Assembly: GCF_910592395.1 (NCBI RefSeq)
Contig: NC_088308.1
Coordinates: 1,674,001 to 1,738,000 of the forward strand
Origin: Lineus longissimus
Lineage: Eukaryota > Nemertea > Pilidiophora > Heteronemertea > Lineidae
DNA length: 64,000 nt
Direction: 5' to 3'
The first letter of the stretch is position 1, and each line of letters opens with the position of its first letter. Below the pieces are notes generated by a model. The model was not told the origin of the DNA and did no database searches. It saw nothing but the letters and a program-made list of their open reading frames with translations. Shown in pieces: positions 9,667-63,957 of the stretch. The position numbers and the translations under genes were made by a program.

Positions 9667-9810
9667 TACAGTTTTGCACGATCCGATCGTCGTCCTTCTC
9701 CGAATTCCAATTGCGATTGCTGCGCGTGGTTTGTACGTGGGTGTGCCTGGCAACCAGGTTTAACTGCTATTTACGGAGAGGGGCCAGGTTAAGCAACCAT
9801 GCCAACGTAT

Positions 9811-15503: not shown

Positions 15504-15577
15504 TTATATATATATATATGATATTTATTTTTATGTAAGTGCAAGCTCTAGTGAGCTCACACACGACTGTTTGACAG

Positions 15578-15985: not shown

Positions 15986-16921
15986 AAGCACATATCAATA
16001 TCAAAAGAATCATTTAATTTATAAAGACAATGTATCTTTTCAAATCTAGATACATGAGGAATTTCTTTGATATATCTACTATGACATCTACTCTGATATA
16101 CTTCTAAATATCATACCATAGAAGAGCTATCATTACAAGAAAATATCAGAATGTCCAAAATGGAGCGACTGGAGACGAGACCTCCAGATGCCCATCCTGA
16201 GATCAGCTATACATTATATTCCTATACCTCCTACCCCCAGTGCGACCAGCTCTATCTCCTAGTTACCTCCACTGGTTATGTCAGGATGCCAGATGCCCGG
16301 AGCGACGGGAGATGGAACGCCGAGCACCTCGAGATCCTCGGAGTAACTTGAGGCGACACCGACCGTTTTCAGGTTCAGATGCTCAGAGCGAGACTGTCCC
16401 AGATGGACGCCACGCGAACATCAGGAGATGCTCGTTGGGACTCGAGACAAGGGTGGCACTCTGCCGCGAAGCATTGCACGAACATTAAGACGCCATATGA
16501 TCTGAAGTCAGTTTTATTAGATGAAGAGAGGTAAAACAACCATCACAGAGCTATAACATGAATAACTATCATAACATTGTTGAGAAGTCATGAAGGTAAA
16601 AAATAAAATACATAAAAGTGGATTACATTCATAGCCTGATTATACGATGATCCATTGCGCATCAGCTGCCAATAGGCTACGTGATGGCATCTAATCCATT
16701 ATAAATTTTTACATCCAGTCATGTAATAATACATGTATATATTATCTACACATCGACATTTTTTTAAACAATTAATGGACCGAGACACCCCCTCCCCGGT
16801 ATCATCTTGTTCCTTGTTCTTGTTCCAATCAATATGACGAGTTGATGTCTATATCTATCACAGGGGTTTGCCAGAAGAAAAGGCTCACTGAGCATCGGAC
16901 GACGGGCGGTCGACCTATACT
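15986..16921. other. Non-coding; includes probable 3' UTR of paralog 2
   Basis: A GC-richer block at about 16141-16490 has two overlapping plus-strand open frames (66 and 82 codons) without recognisable motifs; it might be a decayed element but I cannot name it. A minus-strand AATAAA is at about 16513-16518, suitable as a polyadenylation signal for the gene whose stop is at 16922-16924. Confidence 0.4.
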
Positions 16922-28397: not shown

Positions 28398-28621
28398 ATG
28401 AATTCGTCGATTTTGGCAGCATTTTTGCTGCTGGTGCTGGCAGCATGGACGGGTAAGTCAACATCATCTGACTTTCCAACAAAATGCAAATAATTTACAA
28501 TTGAAGTTACTTTGTAGATCCATGATGAAAACGTTTGATCCATTTTAAGTGCACTGTGATTAATTTTTTGCAGCCGCTGAAGGTGAAAAATCCTACTGCG
28601 ATAAGACACCGACTGGATACC
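28398..28621 (+). CDS. Giant gene exons 1-2: signal peptide and mature N-terminus
   Basis: Exon 1 is 28398-28452 and exon 2 is 28574-28621. Exon 1 encodes MNSSILAAFLLLVLAAWT, a clear hydrophobic signal peptide; cleavage is likely near AWTA-A or just after. Exon 2 adds AAEGEKSYCDKTPTGY; the C...PTGY end resembles the CPSGY start of the far-downstream D modules. Donors are GTAAGT in both cases and both junctions are phase 1. The ATG is the first after the candidate 5' UTR acceptor at 28380. Confidence 0.83.
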
Positions 28622-31600
28622 GTAAGTTTTGCCACCGACACTCAGAAGTCAGCTGTTCTGCGAAGTCTTTCATGCTGCATCTTGATATACGAGTCACAGG
28701 CAGTCTTGATGCTCATGAGTGAACTGAAAGGCTCAAGCTTTCAACGAGTTCCCTTTGCGCTAGACAATGTAATTCTCTGATGAGGCTCTACGGTAGTTGA
28801 AAACTCATGACTGTTGTCCAAAATATGTAAAAAAAAATACGAACGTGTAAGCTCAGCACTACATTAGCCATTCCGTAACCATCTATTAATCTATTTTCGA
28901 GGAGATATGAGGCGACTAGTTCAGTTTTGCAATTTCCTTCAAAAAACCACATTAAAAGTAATTTATTTCGTCTCTTAGCCGAACTCTGTTCTTGTGCGTT
29001 CCGACATTGCAAGGCAGAATGCGCCGGAAATACCATCTGGACAATGAGGAACGTCAAGTTGAAGATTTGCATCCTCTACTGTGGCTTCAACCGAAGGTGT
29101 AAGGCGGTTCAGTACAGGAAAAGGCAGTGTACCTTAAAGTATCGTGTCTGCCGTGCTTGCGATTTGAAAAAGAAGGGAAACCGCTCCTACCATCTGTATA
29201 CCAAGCTAGGTAAGTATTATATAGAGTTTGCTCACATTTCTAAAAAATTTTAAAAGTATGATTGCAGTTTTATAATTTTATGCAATTGCAAACCATTTAA
29301 GAATTTGAACTTGATGGATAGCCCTAGGTTTTTCAAATTCTAGTTCCCGACATTTTCGAACGACGGTTCTTCATTTTGTCAGTTAAAAAAAAATCAAGTT
29401 GAGAGTTAAGCGTAAACTAGCTCTGTTAACAATATCGGGTTATAGAAATGTGAAGTAGAAGGAAACCAGAGACCCCGGCGGAAAGAGTCGCCCTTTCTAT
29501 GACATGAGTGCAACATGAGAGCAATGAAACTGGAATTCTGAGCCTTTGGCGCTGGGATGGAGAGTCGAACTCGTAAACCAGTATATGCCACCGCCCACAT
29601 CACGTTTTTAAATTTTGTGTTTCAGGTCGATGCCGATCACGAGGTATGCAAAACAGACAACACACACGGTTGTCTTTATTGATTAAAACCTAACCTAACC
29701 TAACCTAACCTAACCTAACCTAACCTAACCTAACCTAACCTAACCTAACCTAACCTAACCTAACCTAACCTAACCTAACCTAACCTAACCTAACCTAACC
29801 TAACCTAACCTAACCTAACCTAACCTAACCTAACCTAACCTAACCTAACCTAACCTAACCTAACCTAACCTAACCTAACCTAACCTAATCTAAATAAACT
29901 TAACTTAATAAAACTAATTAAAAGTAAACAAAACTGAAGTAACTAATCATTAGACATTACGGTGATTTGAGAAATATACACGTGCATCTGTGAGATTCGA
30001 ATGAAATGCAATGAAATACAATCAAAGCGTAGTACATAATATCATATCAAATCAAAAATGTGACAGCAGGGACGTTTATACAATGGATCGATAACTTGAC
30101 TTTAAGTAAAATAAGCCGGTAGGTTACTCAATAATCTGACAGTTGTTTGAAAGTCTTAAGAGCTTGAATATATGAAATTCAGAATCTTAACAGTACTTGA
30201 TGTATGTTTAAGTATATATCGATTATAGATTTGTCCCTTATTTTTTTGCTCTTGTGTAGAATTTAAGTGCAGAAGCCGAGGCGGCCAGTGTAAGGGCGTC
30301 AATGCCTGTAAACGCCGCATACCTGTGAAAGGAGTTTGCCCAGGACGCTTAGTCTGTTGTCGAGGAACTGCATGCTCCCGCGGTTACGTTCGCCGATACA
30401 ACGGAAGTCAATGGCAATGCCTACTAAGTGAGTATCATCTGCTTTCTTAAATTAACGCATGTGTTGACAGTTTTGTTTGAGCGCAGTAAGGCGAAAAATA
30501 ACACAACGGATAACGAAACCAGACGTGCCCGCACGGTATAGTAGAAAGTCAAGGTGCTTAAAACTTGAAAATTTGTTATTTTCCCTCCAAATTTCATGTT
30601 CTGTCAGTTTACAGTAATCCACAGAGCATAAAACTATGATGATAAACATGAAATTAAATTGAAGTACTAAAGGTATAGAAGGCGAAATAAGTCACCTTGT
30701 ATTACTTTCATCTTAAGATCAGAAAGCACTGGCAAACGTATGAACTCAAAATTTGGCCAATAAACGTTTCTGCTGCTCCACGGAGTTATGTTAGCGTTAT
30801 TAACATTATGATTGTCCAAGGACTGTGTACTCATGATGGGATCCTGTAACTAATCTGTTTTTGTTTCTTCAGAATGCGGCAGTGGTTACCAACATGTCTT
30901 TAGTTCAGGAAGATGGAAATGCGTCAGACGCTTCGGTTAGTTACATGTATAAGCTCATATCATACTTCTATAAACCTCCTTTTTTCGGATTTCACAAATA
31001 ACTTTCCTTTGATGATAATACACGTTTTCTCATAGATTAATCTTGTCCTTCAAGTAAGATGGCTACTTTCACGAGCAGTATCTTGATGAAACACCCTGTT
31101 TCTTTTGGTACGCTGATCAATGGGAATCTTTCGAAAGCATGAAAACAAATAAAAATGTGAAAAACCCAATTCCCAATTAACAAATATTCTTATAAAAATT
31201 TTTAGGATGTCGCAAGGGTTTCAGACGTGTATTCGTTCTAGGAAAATGGAAATGCGTTAAACGTGAGTTATCCGTTGGTTTCCTCGTTTAGTAAGCCATG
31301 CATGTTTCAAGCGGTAATCTCATATATATATATACACCTGTTTTCATCCATTGTCTCATCTTATACGTTGAATATTTCCGCGTAGTCGTCAAATAACTAA
31401 ACTGTGATGCGTGCGTTGACAATGGTTATCATGATACTGGATTTGAACAATTGATAGACCCCTGACTAAACAATGAGTTTTCTCTTCTAAGGTTGTCCCC
31501 GTGGTTTCCGCCGTGTTTTCTTCAACGGGGTATGGAGATGCATTAACCGTGAGTTATCAATTTGTTTCCTCAAATAAATCGTCTCGTTTAGATAAGTACA

Positions 31601-34600
31601 TAAAAAATAGGATATGAGACCTTTTTATGACCTGCACGTATACCCAATCTGAGTAATCGTAAATTTAGTACCCATGTGTTCTGCGTAAGTGGTGACCAAG
31701 ATCCCTGTCACAACTGCTTTTGAATCATAGCGTGTCTATTGTTTTGTATAAACTCATATTCAGGCATTTTTCGCTGATTTAACAATGTGGCCTTACATGA
31801 AATGAACCGGCATTTTCTCTTTCTAGGATGCGGACGTGGTTACCGGCTAAGTTATGTCAGGGAGAAATGGTCATGCATACGACGTAAGTTACACAGTCAT
31901 TTTGTACGGCTTCGTGAATCGATTACATCTCTTATGCTGTGTTTTATCTCCTGGCTTAAACATACATTATATGGAACTGACCATAGTTTTCAGAACCTAG
32001 AACAAGTAGAGATTATTCTAATGGCGCCAAGTGGCGTTTAAACCAAGTGAGTTGAGTTGAGTGATGAAAATACATGCTCATGACACTCATTCAGTGAGTC
32101 GAATACTTTTACCGGAGTTATCTGATTAATACAGAATCACTAGTGATTTGAACGATGATGAATGAAATGTTTTTATCATTGAAGATTTATCTGCATATTT
32201 AATATTCATTACACTTCACCAATGCCAAACATGTAATGATGGATTCGATTTTGTCTGCAGAGACATTTGATGTCTGCCTTAGCAAAACGTTTAAAAAATT
32301 ATCTCTTCAGGATGCGGAGTTGGTTACCGTCGAACATATTTCAAGGGAGGGTGGAAATGCAGTAAAAGTGAGTACACTATAGCCTATATCTGTGTTGGCA
32401 AAATTTGATAACCCCCTCCGATCCTACTCCGAGAAACTCCGTACCATCAGCAATTCTCGCATACTGTATCGGACGTTTAAAATAACGTACTCAAGAAACG
32501 TTTGACATGCATGTAAGAATGCAACGTTTTGTGACAACGTCTAACCTAAAATTGATTTTGAACTTCTATCATGTCTTACCACAAGCCCCGATAATGTTTA
32601 TTAATATAATCTTCCTTTCCCTTTCATACAGAATGCAGCAGAGGATTCAATCTTTTATTCGTTGGAGGGAAATTGCGATGCATCAAACATCCAATCCGTG
32701 AGTTATTGATTCAGGTCATGTACATGTACATGTACATCAAGGTGTAAATAATTCTTCCTTTAGACACTCGATTTTGTAATGCAATCGCGATTTAATTTAT
32801 GTTGTACAATCCCTTTTTGTACTGTTATAACCAGTCAACACTTACACCCTTTATTCTCTTTTAATGGACTGGATAACTGTATTTTTCCTGTCCAGTCCTG
32901 CACCAGTAGTTTCGTGTATTTCCACGTATTCAAAATTTCAGTTTTAATTAAAGCACACCTTAGTATACTTTGATATATCATATTTCACCTAGGAAATTCA
33001 AAAAATTGATTGTTGTAGATACAACACAATGTATAGATAACATAAATTATTAGCAAACACAATAGAAAAAGAAAAAAACGTAAAGAGAGACGTAACTTGG
33101 GAAGCAACACCCTGGCCATAAATGCATTTTCTGGGGCAATTCGACTTAGCGAATGTGTTTTAACGATCAACATCCATGTAAAAGATTCTCACCACAATTT
33201 CCAAAAGCAAACCTGCTGGTATTAGTTCCAATAAACTTCCAAGTTTGGAACTACCATAATATCGGTGCTAACTGCCGGAATTCATGAATCCTCCTTTAAA
33301 ACCAGCTGAGTTTAATATGAACAGAAGAGAAGAAAAAAATCGTGATTGTGTTTTGACGATCGACAAATTGTGCTATCTCGGGTAATTTATAGAATAAAAC
33401 GATTGTGATTGTGCAATATCCATCTTACTTCAGTTTGCAGAAGGAAGCGTTGTAGATCGACTAGACAGATATGCAGGTATGGCAGGAAGAAGGTTTACAG
33501 AAACGATCGCCGGGGATGTCGACAGTGTTACCGAGTATGCAAAAGCAAACCTGGTAAGTCCGGTGAATAAACTTTAAGTTGGTAAATTCCGAAATTTCAC
33601 AAACACCTCCTTCAATACCGGAGAAGTTGAATATGAATAGAAGGCATCAAAGAATCGTGATTGTGTTTTAGCGATCCAAATTGTACTATCTTGAGTATAA
33701 TTACCGTCACACTTCAGTTTGCAGAAGGAAGCGTTGCAGATCGACTAGACAGATATGCAGGTATGGCAGGAAGAAGGTTTACAGAAACGATCGCCGGGGA
33801 TGTCGACAGTGTTACCGAGTATGCAAAAGCAAACCTGGTAAGTCCGGTGAATAAACTTTAAGTTGGTAAATTCCGAAATTTCACAAACACCTCCTTCAAT
33901 ACCAGAGAAGTTGAATATGAATAGAAGGCATCAAAGAATCGTGATTGTGTTTTAACGATCCAAATTGTACCATCTTGAGTATAATTACCGTCACACTTCA
34001 GGTTGCAAAAGGAAGCGTTGTGTCTTAAGCAAAAAGATATGCAGGTACGGCAGGAAGACGGTTTACAGAAACGATCGCCAGGGATGTCGACAGTGTTACC
34101 GAGTATGCAAAAGCAAACCTGGTAAGTCTGGTAAATAAAATTGAAGTTGGACCCTATCATGTCAGAGAAATTTCTCAAAGTTAAAAAATCCTCCTAAAAC
34201 TCCAGTTGAGTGTAATATTTATAAAAAGCATGAAAAAAATCGTGATTGTGTTTTGACGATTGACAAATTGTGTTATCTTGGGCCATCTATAGAATAAAAC
34301 TATTGTGATTGTGCAATTTACATCTTACTTCAGTTTGCAGAAGGAAGCGTTGTAGATCGACTAGACAGATATGCAGGTATGGCAGGAAGACGGTTTACAG
34401 AAACGATCGCCGGGGATGTCGACAGTGTTACCGAGTATGCAAAAGCAAACCTGGTAAGTCCGGTGAATAAACTTTAAGTTGGTAAATTCCGAAATTTCAC
34501 AAACATCTCCTTCAATACCGGAGAAGTTGAATATGAATAGAAGGCATCAAAGAATCGTGATTGTGTTTTAACGATCCAAATTGTACTATCTTGAGTATAA

Positions 34601-37600
34601 TTACCGTCACACTTCAGTTTGCAGAAGGAAGCGTTGCAGATCGACTAGACAGATATGCAGGTATGGCAGGAAGACGGTTTACAGAAACGATCGCCGGGGA
34701 TGTCGACAGTGTTACCGAGTATGCAAAAGCAAACCTGGTAAGTCCGGTGAATAAACTTTAAGTTGGTAAATTCCGAAATTTCACAAACACCTCCTTCAAT
34801 ACCAGAGAAGTTGAATATGAATAGAAGGCATCAAAGAATCGTGATTGTGTTTTAACGATCCAAATTGTACCATCTTGAGTATAATTACCGTCACACTTCA
34901 GGTTGCAAAAGGAAGCGTTGTGTCTTAAGCAAAAAGATATGCAGGTACGGCAGGAAGAAGGTTTACAGAAACGATCGCCAGGGATGTCGACAGTGCTACC
35001 GAGTATGCAAAAGCAAACCTGGTAAGTCTGGTAAATAAAATTGAAGTTGGACCCTATCATGTCAGAGAAATTTCTCAAAGTTAAAAAATCCTCCTAAAAC
35101 TCCAGTTGAGTGTAATATTTATAAAAAGCATGAAAAAAATCGTGATTGTGTTTTGACGATTGACAAATTGTGTTATTTTGGGCCATCTATAGAATAAAAC
35201 TATTGTGATTGTGCAATTTCCATCTGACTTCAGTTTGCAGAAGGAAGCGTTGTAGATCGACTAGACAGATATGCAGGTATGGCAGGAAGAAGGTTTACAG
35301 AAACGATCGCCGGGGATGTCGACAGTGTTACCGAGTGTGCAAAAGCAAACCTGGTAAGTCCGGTGAATAAACTTTAAGTTGGTAAATTCCGAAATTTCAC
35401 AAACATCTCCTTCAATACCGGAGAAGTTGAATATGAATAGAAGGCATCAAAGAATCGTGATTGTGTTTTAACGATCCAAATTGTACCATCTTGAGTATAA
35501 TAACCGTCACACTTCAGGTTGCAAAAGGAAGCGTTGTGTCTTAAGCAAAAAGATATGCAGGTACGGCAGGAAGACGGTTTACAGAAACGATCGCCAGGGA
35601 TGTCGACAGTGCTACCGATTATGCAAAAGCAAACCTGGTAAGTCTGGTAAATAAAATTGAAGTTGGACCCTATCATGTCAGAGAAATTTCTCAAAGTTAA
35701 AAAATCCTCCTAAAACTCCAGTTGAGTGTAATATTTATAAAAAGCATGAAAAAAATCGTGATTGTGTTTTGACGATTGACAAATTGTGTTATTTTGGGCC
35801 ATCTATAGAATAAAACTATTGTGATTGTGCAATTTCCATCTTACTTCAGTTTGCAGAAGGAAGCGTTGTAGATCGACTAGACAGATATGCAGGCACGGCA
35901 GGAAGACGGTTTACAGAAACGATCGCCGGGGATGTCGACAGTGTTACCGAGTATGCAAAAGCAAACCTGGTAAGTCCGGTGAATAAACTTTAAGTTGGTA
36001 AATTCCGAAATTTCACAAACATCTCCTTCAATACCGGAGAAGTTGAATATGAATAGAAGGCATCAAAGAATCGTGATTGTGTTTTAACGATCCAAATTGT
36101 ACTATCTTGAGTATAATTACCGTCACACTTCAGTTTGCAGAAGGAAGCGTTGCAGATCGACTAGACAGATATGCAGGTACGGCAGGAAGACGGTTTACAG
36201 AAACGATCGCCGGGGATGTCGACAGTGTTACCGAGTATGCAAAAGCAAACCTGGTAAGTCCGGTGAATAAAATTTAAGTTGGTAAATTCCGAAATTTCAC
36301 AAACACCTCCTTCAATACCGGAGAAGTTGAATATGAATAGAAGGCATCAAAGAATCGTGATTGTGTTTTAACGATCCAAATTGTACCATCTTGAGTATGA
36401 TTACCGTCACACTTCAGGTTGCAAAAGGAAGCGTTGTGTCTTAAGCAAAAAGATATGCAGGTACGGCAGGAAGACGGTTTACAGAAACGATCGCCAGGGA
36501 TGTCGACAGTGCTACCGAGTATGCAAAAGCAAACCTGGTAAGTCTGGTAAATAAAATTGAAGTTGGACCCTATCATGTCAGAGAAATTTCTCAAAGTTAA
36601 AAAATCCTCCTAAAACTCCAGTTGAGTGTAATATTTATAAAAAGCATGAAAAAAATCGTGATTGTATTTTGACGATTGACAAATTGTGTTATCTTGGGCC
36701 ATCTATAGAATAAAACTATTGTGATTGTGCAATTTCCATCTGACTTCAGTGTGCAGAAGGAAGCGTTGTAGATCGACTAGACAGATATGCAGGTACGGCA
36801 GGAAGAAGGTTTACAGAAACGATCGCCGGGGATGTCGACAGTGTTACCGAGTATGCAAAAGCAAACCTGGTAAGTCCGGTGAATAAACTTTAAGTTGGTA
36901 AATTCCGAAATTTCACAAACACCTCCTTCAATACCAGAGAAGTTGAATATGAATAGAAGGCATCAAAGAATCGTGATTGTGTTTTAACGATCCAAATTGT
37001 ACCATCGTGAGTATAATTACCGTCACACTTCAGGTTGCAAAAGGAAGCGTTGTGTCTTAAGCAAAAAGATATGCAGGTACGGCAGGAAGACGGTTTACAG
37101 AAACGATCGCCAGGGATGTCGACAGTGTTACCGAGTATGCAAAAGCAAACCTGGTAAGTCTGGTAAATAAAATTGAAGTTGGACCCTATCATGTCAGAGA
37201 AATTTCTCAAAGTTAAAAAATCCTCCTAAAACTCCAGTTGAGTGTAATATTTATAAAAAGCATGAAAAAAATCGTGATTGTGTTTTGACGATTGACAAAT
37301 TGTGTTATTTTGGGCCATCTATAGAATTAAACTATTGTGATTGTGCAATTTCCATCTGACTTCAGTTTGCAGAAGGAAGCGTTGTAGATCGACTAGACAG
37401 ATATGCAGGTATGGCAGGAAGAAGGTTTACAGAAACGATCGCCGGGGATGTCGACAGTGTTACCGAGTATGCAAAAGCAAACCTGGTAAGTCCGGTGAAT
37501 AAACTTTAAGTTGGTAAATTCCGAAATTTCACAAACATCTCCTTCAATACCGGAGAAGTTGAATATGAATAGAAGGCATCAAAGAATCGTGATTGTGTTT

Positions 37601-52600: not shown

Positions 52601-55600
52601 AGAGCATGGTTGGTTTCCTAAAAGGGTACTACAGCACCTAAAGACCCTTTGGCCTAAACAGTTAGCTACATTTACTTTGCCAGTAGAAAAAAAGAAGTCT
52701 TGCTGACTGAACAAGCTCGACCTTATTTTCTGATTGTCTTTCACTTTGTAGTCTACAAATGCCCATCTGGTTATAAAAAAGTTCGGACTGGCATATTGAG
52801 ACGGAGGACAGTCTGCAGGAAAAAAGGTGCGTTTGATTTTATTTTTTCTCTTCGACGTATTTCGCAAGCTTCTTAGATTTACTTTACCTCCATTTTCATT
52901 TAGGAATGTTCAGAGAGGACTAAGGGCCGGGCCATGTCCACAGCCACTGTTATATTTCGTCTTTCCACTGCTGCTGTGTATCACCCACACATGTTATTAT
53001 AGTCTCAAGATTCTAGGATACAGTCGCAAGAAAATGTTATCTGTCGTGCTGAGAAGATAGTGAAAGAGAATTACAAGTTACTACCAGTTATCAAAGAATA
53101 TCTGACCGAGTCGATCACTATCGACATTGTTGTCAGAGTAAAGAGAAAGATTTAACTCAACATGCTTCTAGATATTTTTATGTCAATATTTCAGCATGTG
53201 GTGTAGGCTACAGATGGAAAAAGGGAAAATGCCGCTGTAAGTTGTGTACTAACCTAGAAATCAAACACCTCAGATCCAAAAAAAACCTAACTGGTAATGC
53301 AGCCACCTGGCCTAAACTCTTGACTTTTCGAAATGAAGAATTGATAATGCGGGTGAGGTAACAACAAGAGCATGTTTGGTTTCCTAAAAGGGTACTACAG
53401 CACCTAAAGACCCTTTGGCCTAAACAGTTAGCTACATTTACTTTGCCAGTAGAAAAAAAGAAGTCTTGCTGACTGAACAAGCTCGACCTTATTTTCTGAT
53501 TGTCTTTCACTTTGTAGTCTACAAATGCCCATCTGGTTATAAAAAAGTTCGGACTGGCATATGGAGACGGAGGACAATCTGCAGGAAAAAAGGTGCGTTT
53601 GATTTTATTTTTTCTCTTTGAATTTCTTCCCATGCTTCATAGATTCGTTTTACCTACATTTTCATTTAGTAAAAATGTTCTCTGGCCTGCTTAGAAGAAA
53701 GGGAAAGGGAATTGACAGTTACTACCAGTAATCAATGTATATCTGACCGAGTCGATCACTATCGACATTTGTTGTCAGAGTAAAGACAAATATTTAACGC
53801 AACATGCTTCAAGAAATTTCTATGTATATATTTCAGCATGTGGTGTGGGCTACAGACGAAAGAAAGGAAAATGCCGCTGTAAGTTTTGTACTAACCAAGA
53901 AATAAAGCACTTCAGATCAAAACAAACCTTACTGGAAATACAGACACCTGGCTGAAACGCTGGACTTTTCTAAATAAAGAATTGATCATGTGGGGGGAGG
54001 TAAAATACAACAAGGGCATGTTTGGTTTCCTTAAGAGGTATTATTTGCAGCCAACACCCATTTGGCCTTGGGTACATTTACTTTGCCAGTAAAAAAATGA
54101 GAAATCTTGCTGACTGAAGAAGCTGGACCTTATTTTCTGATTGTCTTTCACTTTGTAGTCTACAAATGCCCATCTGGTTATAAAAAAGTTCGGACTGGCA
54201 TATGGAGACGGAGGACAATCTGCAGGAAAAAAGGTGCGTTTGATTTTATTTTTTCTCTTTGAATTTCTTCCCATGCTTCATAGATTCGTTTTACCTACAT
54301 TTTCATTTAGTAAAAATGTTCTCTGGCCTGCTTAGAAGAAAGGGAAAGGGAATTGACAGTTACTACCAGTAATCAATGTATATCTGACCGAGTCGATCAC
54401 TATCGACATTTGTTGTCAGAGTAAAGACAAAGATTTAACTCAACAGGCTTCTACAAATTTCTATGTCAATATTTCAGCATGTGGTGTGGGCTACAGATGG
54501 AAAAAAGGAAAATGCCGCTGTAAGTTGTGTACTAACCAAGAAATAAAGCACTTCAGATCAAAACAAACCTAACTGGAAATACAGACACCTGGCTGAAACT
54601 CTTGACTTTTCGAAATAAAGAATTGATAATGCGGGTGAGGTAACAACAAGAGCATGGTTGGTTTCCTAAAAGGGTACTACAGCACCTAAAGACCCTTTGG
54701 CCTAAACAGTTAGCTACATTTACTTTGCCAGTAGAAAAAAAGAAGTCTTGCTGACTGAACAAGCTCGACCTTATTTTCTGATTGTCTTTCACTTTGTAGT
54801 CTACAAATGCCCATCTGGTTATAAAAAAGTTCGGACTGGCATATTGAGACGGAGAACAATCTGCAGGAAAAAAGGTGCGTTTGATTTTATTTTTTCTCTT
54901 TGAATTTCTTCCCATGCTTCATAGATTCGTTTTACCTACATTTTCATTTAGTAAAAATGTTCTCTGGCCTGCTTAGAAGAAAGGGAAAGGGAATTGACAG
55001 TTTCTACCAGTAATCAATGTATATCTGACCGAGTCGATCACTATCGACATTTGTTGTCAGAGTAAAGACAAAGATTTAACTCAACAGGCTTCTACAAATT
55101 TCTATGTCAATATTTCAGCATGTGGTGTGGGCTACAGATGGAAAAAAGGAAAATGCCGCTGTAAGTTGTGTACTAACCAAGAAATAAAGCACTTCAGATC
55201 AAAACAAACCTAACTGGAAATACAGACACCTGGCTGAAACTCTTGACTTTTCGAAATAAAGAATTGATAATGCGGGTGAGGTAACAACAAGAGCATGGTT
55301 GGTTTCCTAAAAGGGTACTACAGCACCTAAAGACCCTTTGGCCTAAACAGTTAGCTACATTTACTTTGCCAGTAGAAAAAAAGAAGTCTTGCTGACTGAA
55401 CAAGCTCGACCTTATTTTCTGATTGTCTTTCACTTTGTAGTCTACAAATGCCCATCTGGTTATAAAAAAGTTCGGACTGGCATATGGAGACGGAGGACAG
55501 TCTGCAGGAAAAAAGGTGCGTTTGATTTTATTTTTTCTCTTCGACGTATTTCGCAAGCTTCTTAGATTTACTTTACCTCCATTTTCATTTAGGAATGTTC

Positions 55601-58600
55601 AGAGAGGACTAAGGGCCGGGCCATGTCCACAGCCACTGTTATATTTCGTCTTTCCACTGCTGCTGTGTATCACCCACACATGTTATTATAGTCTCAAGAT
55701 TCTAGGATACAGTCGCAAGAAAATGTTATCTGTCGTGCTGAGAAGATAGTGAAAGAGAATTACAAGTTACTACCAGTTATCAAAGAATATCTGACCGAGT
55801 CGATCACTATCGACATTGTTGTCAGAGTAAAGAGAAAGATTTAACTCAACATGCTTCTAGATATTTTTATGTCAATATTTCAGCATGTGGTGTAGGCTAC
55901 AGATGGAAAAAGGGAAAATGCCGCTGTAAGTTGTGTACTAACCTAGAAATCAAACACCTCAGATCCAAAAAAAACCTAACTGGTAATGCAGCCACCTGGC
56001 CCAAACTCTTGACTTTTCGAAATAAAGAATTGATAATGCGGGTGAGGTAACAACAAGAGCATGTTTGGTTTCCTAAAAAGGTACTACAGCACCTAAAGAC
56101 CCTTTGGCCTAAACAGTTAGCTACATTTACTTTGCCAGTAGAAAAAAAGAAGTCTTGCTGACTGAAGAAGCTCGACCTTATTTTCTGATTGTCTTTCACT
56201 TTGTAGTCTACAAATGCCCATCTGGTTATAAAAAAGTTCGGACTGGCATATGGAGACGGAGGACAATCTGCAGGAAAAAAGGTGCGTTTGATTTTATTTT
56301 TTCTCTTTGAATTTCTTCCCATGCTTCATAGATTCGTTTTACCTACATTTTCATTTAGTAAAAATGTTCTCTGGCCTGCTTAGAAGAAAGGGAAAGGGAA
56401 TTGACAGTTACTACCAGTAATCAATGTATATCTGACCGAGTCGATCACTATCGACATTTGTTGTCAGAGTAAAGACAAATATTTAACGCAACATGCTTCA
56501 AGAAATTTCTATGTATATATTTCAGCATGTGGTGTGGGCTACAGACGAAAGAAAGGAAAATGCCGCTGTAAGTTTTGTACTAACCAAGAAATAAAGCACT
56601 TCAGATCAAAACAAACCTTACTGGAAATACAGACACCTGGCTGAAACGCTGGACTTTTCTAAATAAAGAATTGATCATGTGGGGGGAGGTAAAATACAAC
56701 AAGGGCATGTTTGGTTTCCTTAAGAGGTATTATTTGCAGCCAACACCCATTTGGCCTTGGGTACATTTACTTTGCCAGTAAAAAAATGAGAAATCTTGCT
56801 GACTGAAGAAGCTGGACCTTATTTTCTGATTGTCTTTCACTTTGTAGTCTACAAATGCCCATCTGGTTATAAAAAAGTTCGGACTGGCATATGGAGACGG
56901 AGGACAATCTGCAGGAAAAAAGGTGCGTTTGATTTTATTTTTTCTCTTTGAATTTCTTCCCATGCTTCATAGATTCGTTTTACCTACATTTTCATTTAGT
57001 AAAAATGTTCTCTGGCCTGCTTAGAAGAAAGGGAAAGGGAATTGACAGTTACTACCAGTAATCAATGTATATCTGACCGAGTCGATCACTATCGACATTT
57101 GTTGTCAGAGTAAAGACAAAGATTTAACTCAACAGGCTTCTACAAATTTCTATGTCAATATTTCAGCATGTGGTGTGGGCTACAGATGGAAAAAAGGAAA
57201 ATGCCGCTGTAAGTTGTGTACTAACCAAGAAATAAAGCACTTCAGATCAAAACAAACCTAACTGGAAATACAGACACCTGGCTGAAACTCTTGACTTTTC
57301 GAAATAAAGAATTGATAATGCGTGTGAGGTAACAACAAGAGCATGGTTGGTTTCCTAAAAGGGTACTACAGCACCTAAAGACCCTTTGGCCTAAACAGTT
57401 AGCTACATTTACTTTGCCAGTAGAAAAAAAGAAGTCTTGCTGACTGAACAAGCTCGACCTTATTTTCTGATTGTCTTTCACTTTGTAGTCTACAAATGCC
57501 CATCTGGTTATAAAAAAGTTCGGACTGGCATATTGAGACGGAGGACAGTCTGCAGGAAAAAAGGTGCGTTTGATTTTATTTTTTCTCTTCGACGTATTTC
57601 GCAAGCTTCTTAGATTTACTTTACCTCCATTTTCATTTAGGAATGTTCAGAGAGGACTAAGGGCCGGGCCATGTCCACAGCCACTGTTATATTTCGTCTT
57701 TCCACTGCTGCTGTGTATCACCCACACATGTTATTATAGTCTCAAGATTCTAGGATACAGTCGCAAGAAAATGTTATCTGTCGTGCTGAGAAGATAGTGA
57801 AAGAGAATTACAAGTTACTACCAGTTATCAAAGAATATCTGACCGAGTCGATCACTATCGACATTGTTGTCAGAGTAAAGAGAAAGATTTAACTCAACAT
57901 GCTTCTAGATATTTTTATGTCAATATTTCAGCATGTGGTGTAGGCTACAGATGGAAAAAGGGAAAATGCCGCTGTAAGTTGTGTACTAACCTAGAAATCA
58001 AACACCTCAGATCCAAAAAAAACCTAACTGGTAATGCAGCCACCTGGCCCAAACTCTTGACTTTTCGAAATAAAGAATTGATAATGCGGGTGAGGTAACA
58101 ACAAGAGCATGTTTGGTTTCCTAAAAAGGTACTACAGCACCTAAAGACCCTTTGGCCTAAACAGTTAGCTACATTTACTTTGCCAGTAGAAAAAAAGAAG
58201 TCTTGCTGACTGAAGAAGCTCGACCTTATTTTCTGATTGTCTTTCACTTTGTAGTCTACAAATGCCCATCTGGTTATAAAAAAGTTCGGACTGGCATATG
58301 GAGACGGAGGACAATCTGCAGGAAAAAAGGTGCGTTTGATTTTATTTTTTCTCTTTGAATTTCTTCCCATGCTTCATAGATTCGTTTTACCTACATTTTC
58401 ATTTAGTAAAAATGTTCTCTGGCCTGCTTAGAAGAAAGGGAAAGGGAATTGACAGTTACTACCAGTAATCAATGTATATCTGACCGAGTCGATCACTATC
58501 GACATTTGTTGTCAGAGTAAAGACAAATATTTAACGCAACATGCTTCAAGAAATTTCTATGTATATATTTCAGCATGTGGTGTGGGCTACAGACGAAAGA

Positions 58601-61600
58601 ATGGAAAATGCCGCTGTAAGTTTTGTACTAACCAAGAAATAAAGCACTTCAGATCAAAACAAACCTTACTGGAAATACAGACACCTGGCTGAAACGCTGG
58701 ACTTTTCTAAATAAAGAATTGATCATGTGGGGGGAGGTAAAATACAACAAGGGCATGTTTGGTTTCCTTAAGAGGTATTATTTGCAGCCAACACCCATTT
58801 GGCCTTGGGTACATTTACTTTGCCAGTAAAAAAATGAGAAATCTTGCTGACTGAAGAAGCTGGACCTTATTTTCTGATTGTCTTTCACTTTGTAGTCTAC
58901 AAATGCCCATCTGGTTATAAAAAAGTTCGGACTGGCATATGGAAACGGAGGACAATCTGCAGGAAAAAAGGTGCGTTTGATTTTATTTTTTCTCTTTGAA
59001 TTTCTTCCCATGCTTCATAGATTCGTTTTACCTACATTTTCATTTAGTAAAAATGTTCTCTGGCCTGCTTAGAAGAAAGGGAAAGGGAATTGACAGTTAC
59101 TACCAGTAATCAATGTATATCTGACCGAGTCGATCACTATCGACATTTGTTGTCAGAGTAAAGACAAAGATTTAACTCAACAGGCTTCTACAAATTTCTA
59201 TGTCAATATTTCAGCATGTGGTGTGGGCTACAGATGGAAAAAAGGAAAATGCCGCTGTAAGTTGTGTACTAACCAAGAAATAAAGCACTTCAGATCAAAA
59301 CAAACCTAACTGGAAATACAGACACCTGGCTGAAACTCTTGACTTTTCGAAATAAAGAATTGATAATGCGGGTGAGGTAACAACAAGAGCATGGTTGGTT
59401 TCCTAAAAGGGTACTACAGCACCTAAAGACCCTTTGGCCTAAACAGTTAGCTACATTTACTTTGCCAGTAGAAAAAAAGAAGTCTTGCTGACTGAACAAG
59501 CTCGACCTTATTTTCTGATTGTCTTTCACTTTGTAGTCTACAAATGCCCATCTGGTTATAAAAAAGTTCGGACTGGCATATTGAGACGGAGGACAGTCTG
59601 CAGGAAAAAAGGTGCGTTTGATTTTATTTTTTCTCTTCGACGTATTTCGCAAGCTTCTTAGATTTACTTTACCTCCATTTTCATTTAGGAATGTTCAGAG
59701 AGGACTAAGGGCCGGGCCATGTCCACAGCCACTGTTATATTTCGTCTTTCCACTGCTGCTGTGTATCACCCACACATGTTATTATAGTCTCAAGATTCTA
59801 GGATACAGTCGCAAGAAAATGTTATCTGTCGTGCTGAGAAGATAGTGAAAGAGAATTAAAAGTTACTACCAGTTATCAAAGAATATCTGACCGAGTCGAT
59901 CACTATCGACATTGTTGTCAGAGTAAAGAGAAAGATTTAACTCAACATGCTTCTAGATATTTTTATGTCAATATTTCAGCATGTGGTGTAGGCTACAGAT
60001 GGAAAAAGGGAAAATGCCGCTGTAAGTTGTGTACTAACCTAGAAATCAAACACCTCAGATCCAAAAAAAACCTGACTGGTAATGCAGCCACCTGGCCCAA
60101 ACTCTTGACTTTTCGAAATAAAGAATTGATAATGCGGGTGAGGTAACAACAAGAGCATGTTTGGTTTCCTAAAAGGGTACTACAGCACCTAAAGACCCTT
60201 TGGCCTAAACAGTTAGCTACATTTACTTTGCCAGTAGAAAAAAAGAAGTCTTGCTGACTGAACAAGCTCGACCTTATTTTCTGATTGTCTTTCACTTTGT
60301 AGTCTACAAATGCCCATCTGGTTATAAAAAAGTTCGGACTGGCATATTGAGACGGAGGACAGTCTGCAGGAAAAAAGGTGCGTTTGATTTTATTTTTTCT
60401 CTTCGACGTATTTCGCAAGCTTCTTAGATTTACTTTACCTCCATTTTCATTTAGGAATGTTCAGAGAGGACTAAGGGCCGGGCCATGTCCACAGCCACTG
60501 TTATATTTCGTCTTTCCACTGCTGCTTTGTATCACCCACACATGTTATTATCGTCTCAAGATTCTAGGATACAGTCGCAAGAAAATGTTATCTGTCGTGC
60601 TGAGAAGATAGTGAAAGAGAATTACAAGTTACTACCAGTTATCAAAGAATATCTGACCGAGTCGATCACTATCGACATTGTTGTCAGAGTAAAGAGAAAT
60701 ATTTAACTCAACATGCTTCTAGATATTTTTATGTCAATATTTCAGCATGTGGTGTAGGCTACAGATGGAAAAAGGGAAAATGCCGCTGTAAGTTGTGTAC
60801 TAACCTAGAAATCAAACACCTCAGATCCAAAAAAAACCTAAATGGTAATGCAGCCACCTGGCCCAAACTCTTGACTTTTCGAAATAAAGAATTGATAATG
60901 CGGGTGAGGTAACAACAAGAGCATGTTTGGTTTCCTAAAAGGGTACTACAGCACCTAAAGACCCTTTGGCCTAAACAGTTAGCTACATTTACTTTGCCAG
61001 TAGAAAAAAAGAAGTCTTGCTGACTGAAAAAGCTCGACCTTATTTTCTGATTGTCTTTCACTTTGTAGTCTACAAATGCCCATCTGGTTATAAAAAAGTT
61101 CGGACTGGCATATGGAGACGGAGGACAATCTGCAGGAAAAAAGGTGCGTTTGATTTTATTTTTTCTCTTTGAATTTCTTCCCATGCTTCATAGATTCGTT
61201 TTACCTACATTTTCATTTAGTAAAAATGTTCTCTGGCCTGCTTAGAAGAAAGGGAAAGGGAATTGACAGTTACTACCAGTAATCAATGTATATCTGACCG
61301 AGTCGATCACTATCGACATTTGTTGTCAGAGTAAAGACAAAGTTTTAACTCAACAGGCTTCTACAAATTTCTATGTCAATATTTCAGCATGTGGTGTGGG
61401 CTACAGACGGAAAAAAGGAAAATGCCGCTGTAAGTTGTGTACTAACCAAGAAATAAAGCACTTCAGATCAAAACAAACATAACTGGAAATACAGACACCT
61501 GGCTGAAACTCTTGACTTTTCGAAATAAAGAATTGATAATGCGGGTGAGGTAACAACAAGAGCATGGTTGGTTTCCTAAAAGGGTACTACAGCACCTAAA

Positions 61601-63957
61601 GACCCTTTGGCCTAAACAGTTAGCTACATTTACTTTGCCAGTAGAAAAAAAGAAGTCTTGCTGACTGAACAAGCTCGACCTTATTTTCTGATTGTCTTTC
61701 ACTTTGTAGTCTACAAATGCCCATCTGGTTATAAAAAAGTTCGGACTGGCATATTGAGACGGAGGACAATCTGCAGGAAAAAAGGTGCGTTTGATTTTAT
61801 TTTTTCTCTTCGACGTATTTCGCAAGCTTCTTAGATTTACTTTACCTCCATTTTCATTTAGGAATGTTCAGAGAGGACTAAGGGCCGGGCCATGTCCACA
61901 ACCACTGTTATATTTCGTCTTTCCACTGCTGCTGTGTATCACCCACACATGTTATTATAGTCTCAAGATTCTAGGATACAGTCGCAAGAAAATGTTATCT
62001 GTCGTGCTGAGAAGATAGTGAAAGAGAATTACAAGTTACTACCAGTTATCAAAGAATATCTGACCGAGTCGATCACTATCGACATTGTTGTCAAAGTAAA
62101 GAGAAATATTTAACTCAACATGCTTCTAGATATTTTTATGTCAATATTTCAGCATGTGGTGTAGGCTTCAGATGGAAAAAGGGAAAATGCCGCTGTAAGT
62201 TGTGTACTAACCTAGAAATCAAACACCTCAGATCCAAAAAAAACCTAACTGGTAATGCAGCCACCTGGCCCAAACTCTTGACTTTTCGAAATAAAGAATT
62301 GATAATGCGGGTGAGGTAACAACAAGAGCATGTTTGGTTTCCTCAAAGGGTACTACAGCACCTAAAGACCCTTTGGCCTAAACAGTTAGCTACATTTACT
62401 TTGCCAGTAGAAAAAAAGAAGTCTTGCTGACTGAACAAGCTCGACCTTATTTTCTGATTGTCTTTCACTTTGTAGTCTACAAATGCCCATCTGGTTATAA
62501 AAAAGTTCGGACTGGCATATTGAGACGGAGGACAGTCTGCAGGAAAAAAGGTGCGTTTGATTTTATTTTTTCTCTTCGACGTATTTCGCAAGCTTCTTAG
62601 ATTTACTTTACCTCCATTTTCATTTAGGAATGTTCAGAGAGGACTAAGGGCCGGGCCATGTCCACAGCCACTGTTATATTTCGTCTTTCCACTGCTGCTG
62701 TGTATCACCCACACATGTTATTATAGTCTCAAGATTCTAGGATACAGTCGCAAGAAAATGTTATCTGTCGTGCTGAGAAGATAGTGAAAGAGAATTACAA
62801 GTTACTACCAGTTATCAAAGAATATCTGACCGAGTCGATCACTATCGACATTTGTTGTCAGAGTAAAGACAAAGATTTAACTCAACAGGCTTCTACAAAT
62901 TTCTATGTCAATATTTCAGCATGTGGTGTGGGCTACAGACGGAAAAAAGGAAAATGCCGCTGTAAGTTGTGTACTAACCAAGAAATAAAGCACTTCAGAT
63001 CAAAACAAACCTAACTGGAAATACAGACACCTGGCTGAAACTCTTGACTTTTCGAAATAAAGAATTGATAATGCGGGTGAGGTAACAACAAGAGCATGGT
63101 TGGTTTCCTAAAAGGGTACTACAGCACCTAAAGACCCTTTGGCCTAAACAGTTAGCTACATTTACTTTGCCAGTAGAAAAAAAGAAGTCTTGCTGACTGA
63201 ACAAGCTCGACCTTATTTTCTGATTGTCTTTCACTTTGTAGTCTACAAATGCCCATCTGGTTATAAAAAAGTTCGGACTGGCATATGGAGACGGAGGACA
63301 ATCTGCAGGAAAAAAGGTGCGTTTAATTTTATTTTTTCTCTTTGAATTTCTTCCCATGCTTCATAGATTCGTTTTACCTCCATTTTCATTTAGTAAAAAT
63401 ATTCTCTGGTCTGCTTAGAACAAAGTGAAAGGGAATTGACAGTTACTACCAGTAATCAATGTATATCTGACCGAGTCAATCACTATCGACATTGTTGTCA
63501 GAGTAAAGAGAAAGATTTAACTCAACATGCTTCTAGATATTTTTATGTCAATATTTCAGCATGTGGTGTAGGCTACAGATGGAAAAAGGGAAAATGCCGC
63601 TGTAAGTTGTATACTAATCTAGAAATCAAACACCTCTGATCCAAAAAAAACCTAACTGGTAATGCAGCCACCTGGCCCAAACTCTTGACTTTTCGAAATA
63701 AAGAATTGATAATGCGGGTGAGGTAACAACAAGAGCATGTTTGGTTTCCTAAAAGGGTCCTACAGCACCTAAAGTCCATTTGGCCTAAACAGTTAGCTAC
63801 ATTTACTTTGCCAGTAGAAAAAAAGAAGTCTTGCTGACTGAACAAGCTCGACCTTATTTTCTGATTGTCTTTCACTTTGTAGTCTACAAATGCCCATCTG
63901 GTTATAAAAAAGTTCGGACTGGCATATGGAGACGGAGGACAATCTGCAGGAAAAAAG
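28398..63957 (+). CDS. Giant secreted polycationic cysteine-array protein gene (3' end outside window)
   Basis: One plus-strand gene with at least 105 exons: 11 leading exons, 38 exons of 120 bases and 28 pairs of 42- and 75-base exons. I joined them because every exon is flanked by AG and GT, all internal junctions are phase 1, there is no second ATG plus signal peptide, and the reading frame never meets a stop. Total coding length is about 8,713 bases (about 2,904 residues), open to the right. Order: signal peptide; ten-Cys module; beta-defensin-like domain; C-x14-C mini-modules; six-Cys A/B modules; C/D modules. Array consensus charge is near +1000 with only one acidic residue per A/B module and none in C/D. 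The family is not one I recognise. Secretion is supported by the signal peptide; antimicrobial, mucus/matrix or adhesive function is only inferred. How many exons enter one mRNA is unknown, and phase uniformity permits any combination. Neighbour genes give no functional clue. Confidence 0.8.
28979..29209 (+). CDS. Giant gene exon 3: ten-cysteine basic module
   Basis: 231 bases, 77 residues, phase 1 on both sides, acceptor TCTCTTAG and donor GTAAGT. It has ten cysteines (module positions 4, 6, 11, 15, 31, 35, 41, 51, 58 and 61) and many Arg/Lys. The end, YRVCRAC followed by DLKKKG, resembles the end of the A/B modules (QCYRVC then KSKPG), so it may be a distant relative. I do not recognise a named domain. 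Confidence 0.8.
29626..29643 (+). CDS. Giant gene exon 4: candidate 18-base microexon
   Basis: A TTTCAG acceptor and a GTATGC donor frame 18 bases that preserve phase 1 and encode RCRSR between split glycines. The same CRSRG string opens the defensin-like exon 5. It is either a real microexon or the truncated remnant of a duplicated exon 5 start. Skipping it does not alter the frame. Confidence 0.4.
29689..29888. repeat. (CCTAA)40 tract, TTAGG telomere-type unit, in an intron
   Basis: An uninterrupted pentanucleotide run of 200 bases, 40 units, flanked on the right by degenerate TCTAA, CTTAA and TAAAA copies to about 29925. On the minus strand it reads TTAGG, the arthropod-type telomere repeat. 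It sits inside the intron between exons 4 and 5 of the giant gene. Origin could be slippage of a microsatellite or telomere repeat capture at a repaired break. Confidence 0.95.
30260..30427 (+). CDS. Giant gene exon 5: beta-defensin-like domain plus one C-x14-C module
   Basis: 168 bases, 56 residues, phase 1 on both sides, donor GTGAGT. The first six cysteines are spaced C-x6-C-x5-C-x9-C-x5-C-C, within the ranges of beta-defensins and the C-terminal half of big defensins, including GGQC before the second cysteine and VCCR at the end. Directly after it comes ACSRGYVRRYNGSQWQC, the two-cysteine mini-module that the next six exons repeat. No acidic residue follows the initial Glu. Known defensins are short secreted antimicrobial peptides; whether this domain is released or stays in a large protein is unknown. 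Confidence 0.75.
30428..30872. other. Intron between exons 5 and 6
   Basis: 445 bases between a GTGAGT donor and a TTTCTTCAG acceptor. Only a minus-strand shadow frame is present. Nothing else seen. Confidence 0.7.
30873..32697 (+). CDS. Giant gene exons 6-11: six single-copy C-x14-C mini-exons
   Basis: Exons at 30873-30935, 31206-31262, 31492-31548, 31827-31883, 32311-32367 and 32632-32697 (63, 57, 57, 57, 57 and 66 bases), all phase 1. Each encodes one module with the exact pattern C-x2-G-[YF]-x8-[WL]-x-C, for example CGSGYQHVFSSGRWKC and CPRGFRRVFFNGVWRC. The last has Leu in place of Trp (CSRGFNLLFVGGKLRC) and a HPI extension. They are diverged from one another, unlike the later arrays, and their introns (roughly 230-430 bases) are not similar. 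They look like older duplications of the exon 5 tail. Likely each forms one disulfide (inference). Confidence 0.82.
32698..33433. other. Intron before the A/B array, with a decayed array unit
   Basis: From about 33150 the sequence is related to array introns: GTGTTTTAACGATCAACAT at about 33157 matches the short array intron, CAAAAGCAAACCTG at about 33202 matches the 3' end of an A/B exon (donor lost), and 33220-33433 matches the B-to-A intron. The exon body between them is missing. Left of 33150 nothing was recognised. Confidence 0.65.
33434..44781 (+). CDS. Giant gene A/B exon array: 38 exons of 120 bases, each a six-cysteine 40-residue module
   Basis: Each exon has a TTCAG acceptor and GTAAGT donor, phase 1. 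Cys spacing is C-x4-C-x6-C-x14-C-x2-C-x3-C. Type A starts VCRRKRCRSTRQIC, type B GCKRKRCVLSKKIC; both continue RYGRK.VYRND, then GCRQCYRVCKSKPG. A has 17 basic and one acidic residue; B has 15 and one. A starts: 33434, 33718, 34334, 34618, 35234, 35850, 36134, 36750, 37366, 37982, 38550, 39166, 39782, 40066, 40682, 41298, 41914, 42198, 42814, 43430, 44046, 44662. B starts: 34002, 34902, 35518, 36418, 37034, 37650, 38266, 38834, 39450, 40350, 40966, 41582, 42482, 43098, 43714, 44330. No internal stop in this frame in any copy. Variation is small: Lys/Thr at module residue 19, Arg/Gln at 26, and occasional others. No named domain recognised. Confidence 0.85.
33434..44781. repeat. Higher-order tandem repeat of A, A' and B units
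   Basis: Exon-to-exon steps are 284 bases (A to B, A to A', A' to B) or 332 bases (B to A). These combine into blocks of 616 (AB), 900 (AA'B) and one of 1184 (ABA'B, 37982-39165). The second-position A exons with the short intron in front (33718, 34618, 36134, 38550, 40066 and 42198) are subtype A'. Introns are as conserved as exons. A 2132-base segment from 39782 is repeated from 41914 with shared private variants, so it was duplicated recently. Confidence 0.9.
44782..44996. other. Hybrid intron joining the two arrays
   Basis: The first 35-40 bases (GTAAGTCCGGTGAATAAAAT then TTAAGTTGGACCCA) match introns of the A/B array. From about 44833 (AAAATGTTCTCTCGCCTGCT) the sequence matches the D-to-C introns of the next array. 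It marks the point where two expanding arrays meet. Confidence 0.8.
44997..63957 (+). CDS. Giant gene C/D exon array: 28 pairs of 42- and 75-base exons
   Basis: C (14 codons) reads ACGVGYRWKKGKCR, with RRKKG, KWKNR or FRWKK variants. D (25 codons) reads FYKCPSGYKKVRTG, then I[W/L]RRRT[I/V]CRKK. Both are phase 1; C donor GTAAGT, D donor GTGCGT. C starts: 44997, 45641, 46282, 47047, 47689, 48330, 49095, 49737, 50502, 51144, 51790, 52430, 53195, 53837, 54478, 55119, 55884, 56526, 57167, 57932, 58574, 59215, 59980, 60746, 61388, 62153, 62920, 63560. D starts: 45322, 45963, 46604, 47370, 48011, 48652, 49418, 50059, 50825, 51471, 52111, 52752, 53518, 54159, 54800, 55441, 56207, 56848, 57489, 58255, 58896, 59537, 60303, 61069, 61710, 62476, 63242, 63883. 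Both modules echo the C-x2-G-[YF] start of exons 6-11. About 15 basic and no acidic residues per pair. The array runs off the window. Confidence 0.83.

Follow-up and report, generated by a model that had tools for sequence, protein, structure and literature searches.

The window analysed here, a stretch of 64,000 nucleotides of Lineus longissimus DNA, contains the beginning of a predicted gene that spans 71 kb (C1:1702398-1773217) and closes approximately 35 kb to the right of the window. Our gene model consists of 190 exons whose 14,715 coding bases form one frame from the ATG to a single terminal stop, with 188 GT-AG introns and one GC-AG intron; the intron following each of the first 182 exons is in phase 1. 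The predicted protein is 4,904 aa long (586 kDa) and contains 571 cysteines with a net charge of +1743; at 586 kDa and about +1740, our impression is that it would rank with the most cationic proteins predicted from any genome. From the N-terminus onward, a signal peptide is followed by a PAN-like exon, an exon whose cysteines are spaced in a defensin-like manner, six hairpin exons of two cysteines each, 38 modules of six cysteines (array A), 67 mini-exon pairs (array B), a VWD-C8-TIL-EGF region and two further cysteine-rich exons. The N-terminus contributes +60 to the net charge, array A +575, array B +1016 and the tail +92, and the charge of the hairpin and six-cysteine mini-exon arrays is about +38 per 100 residues. 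We found no published description of this gene in a literature search, and scanning the window against Rfam and for tRNAs gave no hits.

A preliminary description, made from the letters of the window, had reported a giant gene starting with the ATG at 28398 and with its last array exon in the window ending at 63957, and our model places both at the same positions. It had claimed at least 105 exons and no stop in more than 8,700 coding bases. We count 104 in-frame exons (8,695 bases) in the window; an optional 18-nt exon raises this to 105 (8,713 bases), in agreement with the claimed figures. These 104 exons are ten leading exons, 38 A exons (120 nt), 28 B1 exons (42 nt) and 28 B2 exons (75 nt), and all of them join in phase 1 without a stop, as had been described. 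The estimate of about 340 cysteines and a net charge near +1000 for the two arrays is matched by the computed values for their in-window part (340 and +1001), and the array left open at the right edge indeed continues beyond the window. The observation of a giant gene is confirmed, and one giant secreted cysteine-rich polycation, as first proposed, is the simplest reading of a model that runs to its stop after 4,904 aa.

All exons listed below lie on the forward strand. Exon 1 (28398..28452; donor GTAAGT, phase 1) encodes the ATG and a hydrophobic sequence judged by eye to be a signal peptide, and is followed by a short linker exon with one cysteine (exon 2, 28574..28621). Exon 3 (28979..29209) encodes a candidate PAN/apple-like domain of 77 aa. 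Scanned alone, it scored 17.0 bits against Pfam PAN_1 (E 0.0054), under the cut-off of 21.4, and a scan of the complete 327-aa N-terminus did not list PAN_1. The exon has 112 matches in the genome at E<=1, itself included, a few of which contain stops; three of the five exons scanned among these matches passed PAN_1, and the best match (43% identical) scored 25.3 bits. The optional 18-nt exon (29627..29644), which is in phase 1, flanked by AG and GT and outside the 190-exon model, and an intronic (AACCT)41 repeat (29687..29893) precede exon 4 (30260..30427), which encodes a six-cysteine stretch with beta-defensin-like spacing and one CxxGY..WxC hairpin. Six lead exons then encode one two-cysteine hairpin each (30873-30935, 31206-31262, 31492-31548, 31827-31883, 32311-32367 and 32632-32697) and share a common 16-residue register with exon 4, with Trp changed to Leu in the last. 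Across the 15 pairs of these six modules, pN was 0.35 against a pS of 0.61. When the tail of exon 4 was added to the six, BLAST at E<=0.01 gave two matches among these seven hairpin exons and none among their seven introns.

Array A (33434..44781) is composed of 38 exons of six cysteines each, in units of 284 or 332 bp. Array B, which alternates B1 and B2 exons, occupies 44997..63957 in the window and ends at C1:1767347 after 67 B1/B2 pairs. Genome matches at E<=0.001 to the A module (38, from 44 candidates scored) and to B2 (67) all fell within their own arrays, and no additional copy of A, of B2 or of the defensin-like exon turned up in the rest of the genome, the match counts for these three being lower bounds. 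Cysteine numbers per module are even (hairpin 2, A 6, B1 2 and B2 2), so that the repeats suit self-contained disulfide units. An AlphaFold2 fold of array A (mean pLDDT 60.5) was too poor for use, and Pfam matches of the arrays to 4Fe-4S and TNFR/furin-like families, all below cut-off, were rejected as cysteine-repeat noise. Searches of PDB gave no match for array A or the PAN-like exon and no useful match for the lead hairpins; over these and array B, results were either empty or had a best E of 0.24 and worse. Queried with the N-terminus and with two A modules, a search of 5.8 billion proteins, which covers only those 0.55 to 1.75 times the query length, gave no relatives at E<=1.

The 94 array exons of the window use the donors GTAAGT or GTGCGT and the acceptors TTCAG or TGTAG. 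Because the arrays are recent near-copies, such uniformity would be weak evidence alone; that the gene is more than a chance arrangement is indicated by the divergent lead hairpins, by the in-frame run into a stop-closed VWD-C8-TIL-EGF tail and by exact agreement with an NCBI protein. Since the first 182 exons are all followed by phase-1 introns, any set of inner exons stays in frame, and the mini-exons might be skipped in many combinations to give proteins of varied length. Near-identical modules would, however, yield little functional variety, and we regard such splice diversification as highly improbable. It is also very unlikely that the protein is a polyprotein precursor in which proprotein convertases cut R-R-K-R in the A modules to free many small cationic peptides. 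The sequence does offer 22 RRKR sites (R-x-[KR]-R occurs 23 times in the whole protein), but only 22 of the 38 A modules have one, the R-R-K-R falls between a pair of conserved cysteines, and no regular site occurs in array B.

The tail contains clear Pfam matches to VWD (PF00094, 56.8 bits, cut-off 22.9, E 4.4e-15), TIL (28.9 bits, cut-off 24.5, E 1.2e-6) and EGF_3 (E 7.1e-7), and a match to C8 (53.2 bits, cut-off 23.7, E 3.7e-14) that was obtained by scanning the piece and was unlisted in the whole-tail scan. A GDPH motif lies at residue 4435, within the VWD-C8-TIL-EGF region, and the best PDB relative is FCGBP. The preliminary description knew of no described family with this architecture. 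This view has to be revised, as exon 3 is PAN-like, the C-terminus is VWD-C8-TIL-EGF of the FCGBP/mucin kind, and similar parts also occur together on contig C2 (see below).

The NCBI protein that we found, the 412-aa 'zonadhesin-like' P0001, is identical to residues 4493-4904 and covers only these last 412 residues of the predicted polycation. The other tail boundaries were set before P0001 was seen; the GC-AG end was fixed afterwards and on that comparison replaced a last exon with a read-through stop. P0001 starts within the VWD exon, which counts against the single-gene reading and would fit a division into a short zonadhesin-like gene, as modelled by NCBI, and arrays that are unexpressed or form a separate gene. 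Nevertheless, no signal peptide is apparent by eye in P0001, its start at an internal Met removes the GDPH half of the VWD, and array and VWD exon are joined in the same phase without a stop. Two genes are, in our judgement, quite unlikely.

Read as one gene, the predicted product is a D-assembly protein of the FCGBP/mucin/VWF kind, with VWD, C8, TIL and GDPH all present. The GDPH cleavage motif is found in many, although not all, D-assembly proteins. The order VWD-C8-TIL, the GDPH motif and the best PDB match link it to FCGBP, mucins and VWF, from which it differs in having one assembly, a polycation centre, no PTS region and no cystine knot found. Gel-forming mucins are defined by a D1-D2-D'D3 N-terminus, a PTS region and a C-terminal cystine knot. 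The predicted Lineus protein does not show this set of features: its one VWD stretch lies in the tail, with none listed in the N-terminal scan, the arrays are rich in Lys/Arg/Cys and not Pro/Thr/Ser, and neither the N-terminus nor the tail has a Pfam match to a cystine knot or VWC. With one D assembly and no such Pfam match, the protein may not polymerise in the way gel-forming mucins do. FCGBP itself is described as having the GDPH motif in 11 of 13 assemblies (PMC10880436).

The closest functional analogue is Mlig-ap1, a cohesive protein of the adhesive glands of the flatworm Macrostomum lignano, which is described as a protein of 5,407 aa with strongly positive KR regions and VWD-C8-TIL, as required for adhesion by RNAi, and with attachment impaired by heparin (PMC6410801). 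Both are marine worm proteins of similar size (5,407 and 4,904 aa) with very highly positive Lys/Arg regions and a VWD-C8-TIL unit. The KR regions of Mlig-ap1 are reported as low-complexity (PMC9229212), whereas cysteine-rich mini-exon modules carry the charge in Lineus. The C-type lectin and EGF series of Mlig-ap1 had no Pfam match in the Lineus N-terminus, array samples (three A modules and four B pairs) or tail, apart from one EGF_3, and the PAN-like and defensin-like exons have no counterpart in the description of Mlig-ap1 given in PMC6410801.

The protein could instead act as an antimicrobial trap, whose cationic modules and defensin-like ends would bind and kill microbes in the slime, much as big defensins are described to assemble into nanonets (PMC6805989). 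The modules are cationic and cysteine-rich, and exon 4 and one terminal exon approach the six-cysteine spacing ending in CC of big defensins and beta-defensins. The pattern C-x6-C-x3-5-C-x9-14-C-x4-6-CC, set after seeing the sequences, fits two of three candidate domains and occurred in 48/200000 shuffles (exon 4) and 29/200000; the third domain fails it. Exon 4 matched beta-defensin 1 in PDB at E 0.39, but this ranked under ribosomal protein S6 (0.22) and is noise. The two terminal candidates have no PDB match, none of the three has a Pfam defensin match (exon 4 has no Pfam match), a profile built from them returned noise only, and Foldseek gave nothing at E<=0.001 for the low-confidence model of exon 4. 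By eye, the sequence does not show the hydrophobic N-terminal region that big defensins have. Searches with Pfam, PDB sequences, a PDB profile and folds do not support membership among defensins. Four B pairs did reach 24.2 bits against PF00711 (cut-off 21), but this score is summed over four stretches, the best spanning 19 residues (profile positions 6-24 of 36), and we read it as a repeat effect. Overall, we consider an antimicrobial trap unlikely.

In B2, the two units that have diverged most are those at the outer ends (23 and 25 differences), and the right part of the interior varies very little, a distribution that unequal exchange would produce. B1 goes against this pattern, with 26 and 16 differences in its outer units and up to 31 in the interior. 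In B2, pN (0.031) exceeds pS (0.017); within the arrays, selection is inseparable from recent copying. At about 18.59-18.64 Mb of contig C2, PAN exons, VWD(GDPH)-C8-TIL and two-cysteine hairpin phase-1 exons, resembling parts of the giant gene, lie together on the minus strand. A post hoc pattern identified seven hairpin exons on the gene strand, none on the opposite strand and none in 212,000 control strand-bases. This locus, which may be more than one gene, differs from the giant gene in having many PAN exons, few near-neutral hairpins that follow the D assembly, and no A modules. Its hairpins carry +0.08 charges per residue (near neutral) against +0.41 in the commonest B1/B2, and the polycationic arrays look like amplified, Lys/Arg-enriched versions of an older module.

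L. longissimus is reported to release substantial toxic mucus on provocation (PMC5864730). The predicted protein is probably a structural or adhesive component of the slime of this bootlace worm, and we consider it reasonably likely that a single gene encodes a secreted polycation acting as a cohesive, crosslinking partner of acidic slime, with arrays grown from a less charged module. Gland cells would store the protein and secrete it together with the mucus, in which its many Lys/Arg would bind polyanions such as mucin glycans, cell-surface glycans and bacterial surfaces. The D assembly, the cysteines and possible GDPH cleavage would shape and link the chains, and the polycation would crosslink the slime cohesively, as proposed for flatworm Mlig-ap1. 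The arrays may have grown by unequal recombination between mini-exons, the frame being kept because these are in phase 1, from a less charged module whose relatives persist on C2. Among the roles guessed in the preliminary description, mucus or adhesion is favoured by the tail and by the analogue Mlig-ap1; an immune role has the weak defensin-like spacing as its only basis. Against the slime reading, the main texts of the Kulikovia mucus-proteome paper and of the Lineus mucus-toxin paper make no mention of mucin, zonadhesin or von Willebrand proteins.

More tentatively, the protein might be an 'inverse mucin', a mucus-type D-assembly protein in which a disulfide-bonded, genetically expandable polycation of over 4,100 residues takes the place of the glycan-bearing core. 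Slime would then set as the polycation pairs by charge with acidic mucins, and would have built-in defensin-like domains. The protein would have arisen in a nemertean when an old near-neutral hairpin module was enriched in Lys/Arg and its exons were amplified, independently of flatworm cohesive proteins. This fuller scenario is possible but doubtful. KR-rich adhesive proteins have been proposed to derive from a mucus protein by Lys/Arg enrichment or by fusion (PMC6745481), a question that becomes testable with near-neutral hairpins and cationic amplified exons in the same genome.

The giant gene predicted in Lineus longissimus, a nemertean of the family Lineidae, proved to be a real feature of the sequence, and its frame closes with a single terminal stop beyond the window. 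Rebuilt from the raw sequence, the plus-strand gene shows 104 exons from the ATG at 28398 to 63957, all joined in phase 1 and stop-free over 8,695 bases: 10 leading exons, 38 A exons (120 nt, six cysteines), and 28 B1 (42 nt) and 28 B2 exons (75 nt) that alternate as array B. The 105 exons and 8,713 bases of the preliminary description are reached with an optional 18-nt exon (29627-29644), and computation for both arrays within the window returned the composition that it had estimated (340 cysteines, net charge +1001). The A units are spaced by 284 or 332 bp. Within an intron of the gene lies a near-perfect, TTAGG-type telomere-like repeat, (AACCT)41, at 29687-29893.

We added 80 kb to the right of the window to complete the gene. 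Array B continues there to 67 pairs with its alternation never broken; five right-flank B2 exons measure 78 instead of 75 nt through one extra Lys codon that keeps the frame. The tail then encodes, in order, VWD, C8, TIL, an EGF-like domain and two Cys-rich exons. In its final form, the model comprises 190 exons and 14,715 coding bases, with 186 of its 189 introns in phase 1 (the remaining three lie in the tail that holds the VWD-C8-TIL unit, or D assembly) and 188 bounded by GT-AG and one by GC-AG. The predicted protein has 4,904 aa (586 kDa, computed pI of about 11), including 571 cysteines and 1,810 Lys+Arg versus 67 Asp+Glu.

A protein search with the tail returned a 'zonadhesin-like [Lineus longissimus]' protein at 100% identity, whose 412 aa are residues 4493-4904 of our model, letter for letter. 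Tail boundaries were set before this NCBI protein was seen, except the last (the GC-AG intron), which was fitted to it. The initial Met of the NCBI protein is internal to the VWD exon, which leaves out the signal peptide, the GDPH part of the VWD and both arrays.

A Pfam scan of the whole tail identified VWD (E 4.4e-15) and TIL (E 1.2e-6) but did not list C8 and left EGF_3 just under the cut-off; scanned as pieces, the tail yielded C8 (E 3.7e-14) and EGF_3 (E 7.1e-7). Its PDB matches at E<=0.001 comprised 25 sequences, with FCGBP on top and the others being mucins, VWF and further FCGBP. Exon 3 is PAN-like: alone it fell under the Pfam cut-off and it was not listed in a scan of the whole N-terminus; a genome search with it at E<=1 gave 112 matches, the exon itself among them, and three of the five matched exons scanned passed PAN_1. 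A defensin-like cysteine pattern, chosen after sight of the sequences, is present in exon 4 (48/200000 shuffles) and in the first terminal exon (29/200000) but not in the second. Profile and fold searches of the candidate domains found no defensin, and a single-sequence search of exon 4 against PDB placed beta-defensin 1 (E 0.39) under ribosomal protein S6 (E 0.22). We regard this defensin likeness as a lead. The two terminal defensin-like exons (C1:1768001-1778000, local 3301-5217) also have similar 3' flanks, with AATAAA after each, and therefore appear to be a segmental duplication. By read-through of its donor, the first could also act as a last exon.

Distinct copies account for 31 of the 38 A units (with intron) and 52 of 66 B units. 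No frame-shifting indel was found in the 172 array exons; since the arrays are recent copies, however, intact frames are not independent evidence of coding. Intron indels provide a weak control because, besides the B1-B2 intron (25 alignment columns with indels), the other intron classes show 0 or 1. Array exons were selected by length; nevertheless, with alternation and spacing both unbroken, none can have been overlooked. Within the arrays, pN/pS was 0.057/0.116 for A, 0.062/0.222 for B1 and 0.031/0.017 for B2, and the B2 values speak against purifying selection. The six two-Cys lead hairpin exons preceding array A present pN 0.35 and pS 0.61 (15 pairs). BLAST at E<=0.01 gave two matches among seven hairpin exons (these six and that of exon 4) and none among their seven introns. 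Judging by sequence divergence, the six lead hairpins are of old origin.

Around B2, divergence from the consensus is highest in the two outermost units (23 and 25 differences), and the units of the right part are nearly uniform; around B1, outer units carry 26 and 16 differences, with 31 inside. Unequal exchange would give such a pattern, which falls short of proof. The longest exact repeat of array B is 3,339 bp. HiFi reads usually exceed this length, so gross assembly collapse of array B is unlikely. The assembly behind this locus was built with Hifiasm from 79-fold PacBio reads; as published, the assembly of the bootlace worm totals 391 Mb, with 19 chromosomal scaffolds among its 32 (PMC8593623).

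The window corresponds to C1:1674001-1738000 of the genome, whose 391,118,348 bases in 30 contigs we searched for related sequences. At E<=0.001, the A module had 38 matches and B2 had 67, every one inside the giant gene, as were both matches of the defensin-like exon at E<=1. VWD had 49 matches, the best outside the gene (C2:18600038-18600250) directly following a PAN-exon cluster on the same strand. The C2 stretches examined contain successive VWD, C8 and TIL matches and, starting 2.7 kb after TIL, seven phase-1 hairpin exons CPxG[YF]...C of 42, 66, 42, 72, 69, 48 and 57 nt. The first five are likely part of the PAN/VWD gene; the last two, about 1.6 and 10 kb further along, may belong to another gene. 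This pattern, set post hoc, was absent from the opposite strand and from 212,000 control strand-bases. Mean charge per residue is +0.08 in the C2 hairpins, +0.23 in the lead hairpins including that of exon 4, and +0.41 in the commonest B1/B2. We infer that Lys/Arg enrichment of an old hairpin module came first and amplification followed. On the minus strand, both C2:18.60-18.64 Mb and C9:19.84-19.88 Mb hold PAN-exon clusters with VWD exons downstream, suggesting that multi-PAN secreted proteins form a family. A large tandem VWD-exon family occupies C17:83812-1360633: this contig has 25 of the 49 VWD matches of the genome, and several are spaced by about 5.7 kb. The architecture had been thought to belong to no described family, but kin exist: the predicted giant protein belongs with the secreted PAN/VWD proteins of mucus type, among which it is new and extreme.

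The predicted protein runs from a secreted-type start through a polycationic, Cys-rich middle to a D-assembly end. Even-numbered cysteines would form compact modules, and the D assembly and GDPH site would behave as in FCGBP and mucins, in which the Asp-Pro bond of GDPH is cleaved (PMC10880436). The polycation would pair with acidic mucus or surfaces, with Mlig-ap1, the positively charged cohesive protein of the flatworm Macrostomum lignano (PMC6410801), as a model; other flatworms have the KR region as a protein of its own, ap3 (PMC6745481, PMC9229212). Provoked L. longissimus gives off substantial mucus (PMC5864730), and proboscis glands of another nemertean produce sticky toxic mucus, with mucins and VWF upregulated in its proboscis (PMC9132205). 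Counting against a mucus role, the main text of a Kulikovia mucus proteome (PMC11768458) contains no zonadhesin-, willebrand-, mucin-, IgGFc- or VWD- words, and that of a Lineus toxin paper no mucin, zonadhesin or willebrand.

On the minus strand of window 1-28000, open frames for small histidine-rich, proline-rich or membrane-like proteins occur at 12325-21888, and the five scanned had no Pfam match over the cut-off. The same strand carries pieces of an SLC6-type transporter (7399-9759) and of a PAP2 phosphatase (23722-25532).
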